Source: Phycisphaerae bacterium
GTDB lineage: Bacteria > Planctomycetota > Phycisphaerae > UBA1845
Direction of reading: 5' to 3'
DNA length: 35,290 nucleotides
Assembly (NCBI GenBank): GCA_013360585.1
Contig: JABWBH010000047.1
Coordinates: forward strand, 1 to 35,290
In this document: positions 28,675-31,322 of the stretch, piece after piece
Layout of the letters: each line of letters opens with the position of its first letter
How positions within the stretch are numbered: position 1 is the stretch's first letter
Notes under the pieces: model-generated
What the model was told of the DNA's origin: nothing
Seen by the model: only the letters and a program-made list of their open reading frames with translations
Databases searched by the model: none
Made by a program: the position numbers and the translations under genes

Positions 28675-30372
28675 ATGTCATACCAGGTGCTCGCACGCAA
28701 ATACCGCAGCGCGACCTTTGAGCAGCTCATCGGTCAGGAGGCAATCGCCGCGACGCTGGTCAACGCGATCCGCACGGGCCGTGTGCACCACGGCTACCTT
28801 TTCACGGGCACGCGCGGGGTGGGGAAGACGTCGGCGGCGCGGATTCTCGCCAAGGCGCTGAACTGTCTGTCGTCGGACGGACCGACCGCGACGCCCTGCT
28901 GCGCCTGCGACGCCTGCTCGCTGATCGCGGAGGGCGAGGACATTGATGTGGTCGAGATCGACGCGGCGAGCAACACGGGGGTGGACAACATCCGCGAGCT
29001 GCGTAACAACACGGCGTTCCGCCCGACGCGGTCGCGATTCAAGATCTACATCATCGATGAAGTGCATATGCTCAGCACCGGGGCGTTCAACGCCCTGCTC
29101 AAGACGCTGGAGGAGCCCCCCGAGCACGTCAAGTTCATCCTTGCCACGACGGAGCTTCAGAAAGTTCCGGCGACGATCCAGAGCCGGTGTCAGCGATTTG
29201 ACTTCCGTCCGATCCCGCAGGCGCGGATCGGCGAGCAGTTGCGGCGCATTCTGGACGCGGAGAAGGTCGGCGCGGAGGACGACGTGATCCGCCGGGTCGC
29301 ACGGCTGGCGGCGGGTTCGATGCGTGACGCGCTGTCGCTGCTGGACAAGGTCTTGTCGTTTTCGACGGGCGACCTGACGTCGGCGGCGCTGGACGAACTG
29401 CTGCCCCCGGCGCTTGACGAGTTCTCGTATGCGCTGGTTGCGGAGCTGGCGGCGGGGGACGCGGGGGCGGCGCTGCGGCGGCTGGACGACGCTCTGTCCG
29501 GCGGCGAAACGCTGGAGCGGACGTGCGAGCTGCTGCTGGATCACGTGCGGAAGCTGATGCTGGTGCGGGTGTGCGGCGCGGATACGGACCTGCTGGACGT
29601 GTCCGAGGCGCTGAGGCCGCGGTTCGTCGAGCAGGCGGCGGCGTATGAGCCTCCGGTGTACGTCTACATGCTGACGCTGCTGGAGGATCTGCGGCGGGCG
29701 GTGCGGTCGAGCGGGTCGGGTCGGGCGCTGGCGGAGGCGGCGCTGGTTCGCCTGGCGATGGCGGCGCAGTTCACGGACATACGCGCGCTGCTTTCCGGGC
29801 AGGTCCGGGTCGAGAGCGCGGCGGAGAGCGCATCCGCATCCGGGCGCGTGCTGGCGTCCGCGGAAAAAAAAAATCCCGCTGACGTGCGTATTTCGGGCGG
29901 CGGCGCCTCGGCGCCCGTCCGATCGAGCGAGGGCGCGGCGTCGGCGAGTCAGGTCGCCGTCCCTCAGCCGGCGCGGACGCCGTCACCGGCGCCGGTTGCG
30001 AATCCTCCGGCGGGATCCGGCTTGACGGCGGGAGCCTCCGGTCACGTCTCCGACATCATCCCGCGTGCGACGACGCGTCCGCCGGCGGTGAATCCCGGCG
30101 GAAGCGCCAGGCGAACACCGGGGCCGGGTGCTGTTCCGGCGGCGCCCCCGGCCGCGCCCCCGGCCGCGCAGGAGCATTGGCGCGACCGCGTGCTGAAAGA
30201 CGATCTCGTCCGCGAAACGATGGCCCGGTTCGAGGCGCACGTCAGTGACATCATGCTGGCATCCGAAACCGGCGCCGCCGGAACCGTCGAGCCTCCGCCG
30301 GACCCCGTTTCGCCGACGGAGGAGGGCGCTCCGCTGTTTGATCTGAGTCACGATGTCGAGGAGCAGGATTAA
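28675..30372 (+). CDS. dnaX: DNA polymerase III subunits tau/gamma
   Basis: The clamp-loader ATPase of the replicative polymerase; 565 residues as the full-length tau form. Walker A GTRGVGKT is at residues 45-52. The zinc module is C64, C75, C78 and C81. YIIDEVHMLS is the Walker B region, LLKTLEEPPEHVKFILATTE the sensor I region and SRCQRFDFRPI follows; the SRC motif is the arginine finger. Domain III follows, then a Pro/Ala-rich linker (about 400-505) and a short C-terminal domain. An A10 run at 29864-29873 within codons E397-N400 can shift to the -1 frame and stop at 29880-29882, giving gamma of 402 residues. The ATG at 28675 is fixed by MSYQVLARKYRS. The 28508-28674 leader shows nothing I can name. 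The stop abuts the ybaB ATG. Confidence 0.96.
   Translation: MSYQVLARKYRSATFEQLIGQEAIAATLVNAIRTGRVHHGYLFTGTRGVGKTSAARILAKALNCLSSDGPTATPCCACDACSLIAEGEDIDVVEIDAASNTGVDNIRELRNNTAFRPTRSRFKIYIIDEVHMLSTGAFNALLKTLEEPPEHVKFILATTELQKVPATIQSRCQRFDFRPIPQARIGEQLRRILDAEKVGAEDDVIRRVARLAAGSMRDALSLLDKVLSFSTGDLTSAALDELLPPALDEFSYALVAELAAGDAGAALRRLDDALSGGETLERTCELLLDHVRKLMLVRVCGADTDLLDVSEALRPRFVEQAAAYEPPVYVYMLTLLEDLRRAVRSSGSGRALAEAALVRLAMAAQFTDIRALLSGQVRVESAAESASASGRVLASAEKKNPADVRISGGGASAPVRSSEGAASASQVAVPQPARTPSPAPVANPPAGSGLTAGASGHVSDIIPRATTRPPAVNPGGSARRTPGPGAVPAAPPAAPPAAQEHWRDRVLKDDLVRETMARFEAHVSDIMLASETGAAGTVEPPPDPVSPTEEGAPLFDLSHDVEEQD
29864..29882 (+). promoter_or_regulatory. programmed slippage site in dnaX (gamma-subunit stop)
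   Basis: Ten consecutive A residues (29864-29873) span codons GAA AAA AAA AAT. A -1 ribosomal shift, or one extra A in the transcript, gives AAA TCC CGC TGA and ends translation at 29882. A possible downstream stem (CGGGCG at 29894-29899 with CGCCCG at 29912-29917) starts 20 bases after the run. That is far for a ribosomal frameshift element, so transcriptional slippage as known for Thermus dnaX is at least as likely. Confidence 0.75.
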
Positions 30373-30720
30373 ATGTTCGGGAATCTCGGAAATCTGACGG
30401 GTCTGCTGAAGTCGGCCAGGGAGCTTCAGGGGAACATGGCGCGGATGCAGGAGGCGCTGCTGGCGCAGCGGCATACCGGGGAGTCCGGAGGCGGCCAGGT
30501 GCGGGCGACGGTTGACGGGCGGGGGCGCCTCGTGGACATCAAGATCGAGCCTGCCGCGACCGCGGACGTGGAGCTTCTGGAAGACCTGGTGAAAAGCGCC
30601 GTGGGCGTGGCGTCCCGCAACGCCGAGGAAGCCGCGAAGCAGGAGATGTCGCGGCTGACCGGGGGGATGAATCTTCCGCCGGGTCTGATGGACGCGCTCG
30701 GGGGGGGCGGACGGGCGTGA
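30373..30720 (+). CDS. ybaB: YbaB/EbfC nucleoid-associated protein
   Basis: A 115-residue member of the YbaB/EbfC family, small DNA-binding proteins that form tweezer-like dimers. It has the typical N-terminus (MFGNLGNLTGLLKSARELQGN), a central beta sheet (GGQVRATVDGRGRLVDIKIEP, broken here by the family's G-G turn), and a helical C-terminus (LEDLVKSAVGVASRNAEEAA) ending in a flexible Gly-rich tail. The ATG directly follows the dnaX stop (TAAATG), and its own stop overlaps recR. This is the usual dnaX-ybaB-recR operon. Confidence 0.94.
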   Translation: MFGNLGNLTGLLKSARELQGNMARMQEALLAQRHTGESGGGQVRATVDGRGRLVDIKIEPAATADVELLEDLVKSAVGVASRNAEEAAKQEMSRLTGGMNLPPGLMDALGGGGRA

Positions 30721-31322
30721 GCGGTCGCGGACACATCGAGTCGCTCGAGCGCCTGAAGGAGCTGCTGAAGCGTCTCCCCGGGATCGGGGCGCGCAGCGCG
30801 GAGCGGATCGCGTTTCACATCCTGCGGTCCTCGCGCGAAGACGCCGAAGCGCTCGCCTCCGGTATTCTTGACGTGAAAACAAGAGTCCTGCACTGCTCGC
30901 GCTGCTTCAACCTGACGGAGACGGATCCCTGCGCGATCTGCGCGGACCCGCGGCGCGACGCTTCGGAAATCTGGGTCGTCGAGCAGCCTCACGACGTGCT
31001 CGCGCTGGAAAGCACCGGGCTGGTGCGCGGCGTCTACCACGTCCTGCTGGGTCACATCTCGGCGATGGACCGCATCGAACCGGGCGACCTGACGCTGGAG
31101 GCGCTGGTGCGCCGCGTCAAGGACGGGGGCGTCCGCGAAGTCGTCCTCGCGCTGAACCCGACGCTCGAAGGCGACGGAACGGCGCTGTATATCCAGAGCC
31201 TGCTTTCCTCGTCGCCGGTGACGCTCTCGCGACCTGCGCGGGGACTCGCCGTCGGATCGCAGATCGAGTACGCCACCGGGGGCATGCTCGAGGCGGCGAT
31301 CAAAGGGCGGACGCGCTGCTGA
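30717..31322 (+). CDS. recR: recombination mediator protein RecR
   Basis: A 201-residue recombination protein that works with RecF/RecO to load RecA at gaps. An N-terminal helix-hairpin-helix covers LKELLKRLPGIGARSAER. The four-Cys zinc finger is C60, C63, C72 and C75. The Toprim domain starts at IWVVEQPHDVLALE, with the acidic residue in NPTLEGDGTALYI. The C-terminal Walker-like strand region is LAVGSQIEYATGGML. The length is standard. It starts with GTG, sharing four bases (GTGA) with the ybaB stop, which indicates translational coupling. It is the last gene of the SRP RNA-dnaX-ybaB-recR unit. Confidence 0.95.
   Translation: MSGRGHIESLERLKELLKRLPGIGARSAERIAFHILRSSREDAEALASGILDVKTRVLHCSRCFNLTETDPCAICADPRRDASEIWVVEQPHDVLALESTGLVRGVYHVLLGHISAMDRIEPGDLTLEALVRRVKDGGVREVVLALNPTLEGDGTALYIQSLLSSSPVTLSRPARGLAVGSQIEYATGGMLEAAIKGRTRC

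Follow-up and report, generated by a model that had tools for sequence, protein, structure and literature searches.

Can a single dnaX gene supply two clamp-loader proteins, full-length tau and truncated gamma, from one run of adenines? The question is raised by a 35,290-nt stretch of DNA from a Phycisphaerae bacterium (contig JABWBH010000047.1), hereafter the window, in which a first-pass annotation had pointed to ten A's inside the dnaX coding sequence. The importance of gamma has long been disputed, and the routes by which it is made differ between bacteria. At the -1 site of Escherichia coli dnaX, a Shine-Dalgarno sequence and a stem-loop act as stimulators. The E. coli site itself is A_AAA_AAG, at which the ribosome shifts frame (PMC1088944, PMC5009743), and the A9 run of Thermus thermophilus dnaX is the type case of transcriptional slippage (Larsen et al. 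2000, as cited in PMC1088944 and PMC5009743).

The A10 tract of dnaX and its predicted products

The gene at 28675..30372 (+ strand) encodes the clamp-loader subunit of DNA polymerase III and is a clear dnaX orthologue (TIGR02397 dnaX_nterm, 407 bits; Pfam DNA_pol3_delta2, DNAX_ATPase_lid, and DNA_pol3_gamma3). Its zero frame specifies a tau protein of 565 aa. Downstream on the same strand are ybaB/ebfC (30373..30720; PF02575, 87 bits) and recR (30717..31322; RecR_HhH, RecR_ZnF, and Toprim), which together with dnaX form the usual dnaX-ybaB-recR cluster. A profile built from 75 tau-specific parts located a conserved C-terminal motif, RVLKDDLVRETMARFEAHVSDI (30187..30252, + strand; consensus DPLVxxxxxxFDGxxxxV), that is contained in tau and missing from gamma.

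The A10 tract occupies 29864..29873 (+ strand; aa 397-400), about 70% of the way along the gene. It lies just C-terminal of domain III, whose Pfam match ends at aa 368, and so belongs among A runs of nine or more in dnaX downstream of that domain. The zero-frame codons across the tract are GCG GAA AAA AAA AAT CCC GCT GAC, and with one base added (A11) the reading becomes GAA AAA AAA AAA TCC CGC TGA. This TGA (29880..29882, + strand), in the -1 frame and 6 nt past the tract, would end a gamma protein of 402 aa in A11 or A8 transcripts; tract and near stop are identical in two further species of the window's genus (L005 and L006). A second TGA (30023..30025, + strand), in the +1 frame and 149 nt past the tract, would end a 449-aa product in A9 or A12 transcripts. 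The tract, its shifted reading AAA TCC CGC TGA, and the lengths of 565 and 402 aa had all been put forward in the first-pass annotation, and the frames confirm them.

Very probably, in our view, this tract serves for programmed transcriptional realignment (slippage) as in T. thermophilus. RNA polymerase would slip on the A tract and release dnaX mRNAs with varied numbers of A's. Transcripts with 10 or 10+3n A's would encode tau. On those with one extra A, translation would run for two sense codons beyond the tract and then stop, giving a gamma that consists of the AAA+ domains I to III without the polymerase/helicase-binding C-terminus. Third-frame transcripts would yield the gamma-like product of 449 aa. 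The assignment of a candidate slippage site draws on the sequence and how widely it is conserved, on where the stops fall, on the lack of a phase lock and of an enriched stem or Shine-Dalgarno sequence, and on polarity reversals; from these we infer polymerase slippage itself, the tau:gamma ratio, and the use of gamma.

Conservation of the tract in planctomycete dnaX genes

Is the tract more than a chance homopolymer? Our genome-wide statistics are pattern counts, and by such a count the 4.24-Mb genome holds three A10/T10 runs. The dnaX tract is the only one inside a convincing gene; the other two lie outside any. Given the codon use of the window's own dnaX, the probability that E-K-K-N would be spelled as A10 is ∼2e-3. 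A9 is sparse in 40 relatives, with between a few and some tens of occurrences in each genome. Runs of nine or more A's are absent from the first 1040 nt of all 207 planctomycete dnaX genes surveyed (215 kb in total), versus 106 such runs at the homologous place.

The window's genome falls in a planctomycete order rich in G+C, and two "Phycisphaerae" MAGs (L034 and L035) are named relatives with the same arrangement. A scan of named genomes, which spanned several phyla but not the window's near relatives, put further names to carriers, among them Aporhodopirellula aestuarii (A10, L048) and Gemmata sp. IIL30 (A9, L037). The 207 genes came from 98 genomes of the window's order, 38 of other orders of its class, and 71 of other classes. 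A9 or A10 was carried by 68/98, 24/38, and 14/71 of them, respectively, at aa ∼355-435, just past domain III. The site was A10 in 76 genes, A9 in 30, and A8 in 3, and a run of A11 or longer was found there in none of the 207. On this comparative evidence, the tract is maintained by selection in many planctomycetes, and strongly so in most of one class.

Alignment of related dnaX genes had been suggested in the first-pass annotation, and it recovered A9/A10 in 106 of the 207 together with stops in both other frames. The annotation had also held that absence of the run from close relatives would speak against the idea; here the outcome was divided, with the run carried by 68 of the 98 genomes of the order and missing from 29. 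The tree suggests that these absences are mostly repeated losses, a direction that the rooting cannot prove. Since 29 members of the order do without the tract, gamma made by the tract route would be dispensable there. The tau C-terminus was kept in 26/26 run-less dnaX genes of the order. Among the order members without a dnaX A run are seven loci of family f8 (L168, L173, L019, L020, L142, L146, and L148) and most of family f5, in which near out-of-frame stops are missing too. From their sequences, gamma by recoding has apparently been lost in these run-less members.

Could the run simply reflect selection on the protein? In most genes the tract codes for EKKN, EKKK, AKKK, and similar peptides, as expected if the protein conserves a lysine-rich linker and the homopolymer is incidental. 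However, relatives without the tract do not have a lysine patch (KK in 1/28, KKK in 0/28). Moreover, outside the tract 67% of lysine codons in these genes are AAG, yet the run is pure A in 106/106, and an excess of out-of-frame stops is not what selection on the protein would produce. Because the tract-less relatives lack the lysines, we rejected the protein-selected linker, which we regard as highly improbable.

Stop codons, codon phase, and stimulatory signals

Programmed -1 ribosomal frameshifting of the E. coli type would also produce gamma from this gene: tRNA-Lys would slip back on an embedded A_AAA_AAA, and translation would stop at the TGA. An in-frame A_AAA_AAA is present within the run, and the -1 stop is very near to it. 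We scored stops in the 95 A9/A10 dnaX genes that hold tau in the zero frame, using other positions in the same genes as controls. A stop within less than 30 nt was found in the -1 frame in 76/95 genes (controls, 23-28%) and in the +1 frame in 78/95 (controls, 26-33%). Stops at this distance in both other frames occurred in 62/95 genes (65%), compared with 7-8% at control positions. The median distances to the out-of-frame stops were 212 and 187 nt in genes without the tract versus 18 and 14 nt in genes with it. The +1 stops, enriched as much as the -1 stops, would be useless to a ribosomal -1 shift, but a polymerase adding or dropping A's would need stops in both frames, which favors slippage. 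In the window the +1 stop is far from the tract, so the pattern of stops in both frames holds only in part there.

Codon phase also argues against the ribosomal reading. The A9/A10 tracts start in codon phases 0, 1, and 2 in 6, 51, and 49 genes, respectively, and the phase changed at least 17 times on the dnaX tree, an approximate count because this is a quick tree with many weakly supported forks. The tract is thus kept irrespective of codon phase in the 106 of 207 genes that have it, and its length, A9 or A10, is conserved rather than the phase of a heptamer. Nor did we find an excess of the signals expected to assist a shifting ribosome. A stem-loop 5-8 nt downstream was not significant in the window and not enriched in the A9/A10 group, stem stability at A9/A10 sites averaged z = -0.07 versus -0.10 at controls, and Shine-Dalgarno-like sequences upstream of A9/A10 were not in excess (20% with at least four matching bases versus 22% of controls).

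The first-pass annotation had noted a candidate stem ∼20 nt downstream and had used its distance as an argument for slippage. Compared with shuffles, this stem had no advantage (z = -0.28, -0.72, and +0.37), nor did folds in this G+C-rich sequence at A9/A10 sites in general, and we gave up using a downstream stem to tell the mechanisms apart. What weakens the argument is the lack of any significant stem, not a stem that stands too far away. The preference for slippage during transcription over a ribosomal shift, voiced in the same annotation, is nevertheless supported by the both-frame stops, the free phase, the missing stimulators, and the reversals described below. Ribosomal frameshifting as the explanation of the tract seems unlikely to us; because A_AAA_AAA heptamers lie inside the tract, -1 shifting by ribosomes could add to slippage.

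Slippage in Thermus has been related to its two lysine tRNAs (PMC5009743). We surveyed tRNA-Lys genes by a pattern search in 80 genomes and with ARAGORN on 31 loci. The window's genome has two tRNA-Lys genes, compared with one in E. coli, and the presence of both tRNA-Lys(UUU) and tRNA-Lys(CUU) counts against E. coli-type frameshifting. Genomes of the slippage type and of the frameshift type share the two tRNAs, so having both is not enough to set the mode; the tRNA-Lys set was dropped as a discriminator. None of the ribosomal sites found in the class ends in AAG.

Reversed polarity among A9/A10 genes

Eleven A10 genomes have the reversed arrangement, with gamma in the zero frame and tau in the -1 frame. 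One of them (G002, locus L007) is a fourth species of the window's genus: its A10 is followed 31 nt later by a zero-frame TAG, and the tau domain is in the -1 frame, a polarity opposite to that of G000, G001, and G003 in the same genus. Detection of the tau motif was confined to the -1 frame in 7 of the 11 reversed genes (six clear, E <1e-9; G376 weak). Polarity changed at least eight times among A9/A10 dnaX genes on the same approximate tree. A slipping polymerase would supply both frames whichever of them the DNA holds, so polarity reversals are expected under slippage. In genome annotations, genes of this polarity probably appear as a truncated dnaX or as two broken pieces.

A one-base change in DNA would account for the polarity of G002 relative to G000, G001, and G003, as expected if the run were a tract of replicational slippage (phase variation) or a homopolymer assembly error. 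Against this stand the fixed length of the tract, which is A9 or A10 in 106 genomes and never reaches A11, and the A10 and stop shared by three species of the genus. Drift at the DNA level would also fit transcriptional slippage, which would buffer it in an essential gene. We give replicational slippage or assembly error very little credence.

Ribosomal-type sites in relatives

Neighboring families carry real-looking ribosomal sites in dnaX, a point in favor of the ribosomal reading of the window. These are phase-locked A_AAA_AAA or G_GGA_AAA sites with stems, which by their sequence are of the ribosomal frameshifting type. The X_XXY_YYZ phase was found at 8/8 A7 and 5/5 GGGAAAA sites of the class, and their phase differs from that of A9/A10 tracts (Fisher p ∼1e-4, uncorrected for relatedness). 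Mean stem z was -1.16 for A7 and -2.31 for GGGAAAA versus -0.53, with stems beginning a few nt downstream, and Shine-Dalgarno-like matches were commoner at these sites; both groups are small. The genomes G302 (A7, reversed, with a stem) and G284 (A10) are well-supported sisters. Over the class dnaX tree, the site type (A9/A10 of either polarity, A_AAA_AAA or G_GGA_AAA, or no site) changed at least 22 times, again an approximate figure.

Several individual arrangements were recorded in this survey. In five loci (L219, L212, L230, L227, and L238, from G115, G145, G195, G262, and G366), the zero frame closes at gamma length with G_GGA_AAA GCN TGA, a stem lies a few nt farther downstream, and the -1 frame stays open over a long distance, which is the ribosomal-type arrangement in which tau comes from the frameshift. 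In Phycisphaerales and related MAGs (L039, L040, and L042), an A7 in the ribosomal phase is followed by a zero-frame stop 3 nt on and a long open -1 frame, and their dnaX genes are probably shown as truncated in public annotation.

Family f23, of another class (L355-L358, L361, and L363-L368), differs again: the zero frame ends at aa 385-397, in 11/11 genomes it is the -1 frame that encodes the tau C-terminal domain, and an X_XXY_YYZ heptamer was absent from all 11 sampled dnaX genes. A C_CCN codon stands near the zero-frame stop (TAG, TAA, or TGA), and most of these genes have a strong hairpin that starts at the stop (e.g., GGCCGG...CCGGCC). This may be an undescribed type of -1 frameshift site. 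In G169 (L297/L359, family f58), AAG CGG TAA closes the zero frame at aa 376, and the +1 frame holds a tau-like C-terminus; in this single genome, a +1 shift or a sequence error could be responsible.

We lean toward the view that dnaX of Planctomycetota forms a natural series of interconvertible modes of tau/gamma recoding. The series would comprise A9/A10 slippage giving gamma, the reversed polarity giving tau, phase-locked A_AAA_AAA or G_GGA_AAA sites of ribosomal -1 shifting mostly giving tau, and the f23 -1 shift giving tau without a canonical heptamer.

Discussion

The window's gene resembles T. thermophilus dnaX in its long A run and in having tau in one open frame, and gamma would likewise come from mRNAs with A's added or lost, a phase-specific heptamer being unneeded. 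RNA and protein evidence are those of Thermus, whereas the case for the window is comparative. The two also differ in tract length (A10 in the window versus A9), in the distant +1 stop of the window, and in tract position, which PMC1088944 puts seven-eighths through the Thermus gene. With E. coli the window shares the gene and a truncated gamma, here predicted, beside tau, but it lacks an A_AAA_AAG-type signal with a stem and Shine-Dalgarno sequence.

Two-ORF dnaX genes in which tau is recoded were reported from GeneTack predictions, nine with 10 A's, Chlorobi among them, and the authors take the A10 cases as transcriptional realignment (Antonov et al. 2013, PMC3711429). As described there, these genes match the reversed genes found here (G002, G018, G026, G043, G089, and family f12) and are opposite in polarity to the window, in which tau is in frame and gamma is shifted. 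The first-pass annotation had been aware of no planctomycete dnaX described in this way. We likewise found no paper on planctomycete dnaX recoding in the open-access literature, and the main text of PMC3711429 discusses none; A10 dnaX genes are, however, already on record from other bacteria (PMC3711429). As read from these genomes, what is new is the phylum-wide record of repeated polarity and mechanism switching in one essential gene.

Planctomycete dnaX offers a test of the idea that a second lysine tRNA accompanies slippage and not frameshifting (PMC5009743). The tract appears to be under strong selection in most of one class. Several lineages appear to have lost it, its polarity has flipped eight times or more, and in some relatives ribosomal sites have taken its place. 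This history makes the question of gamma testable by comparison. What seems to be conserved is the supply of tau and gamma, not the mechanism that provides it. The series of switches would thereby bear on why gamma exists and why there are many routes to it.
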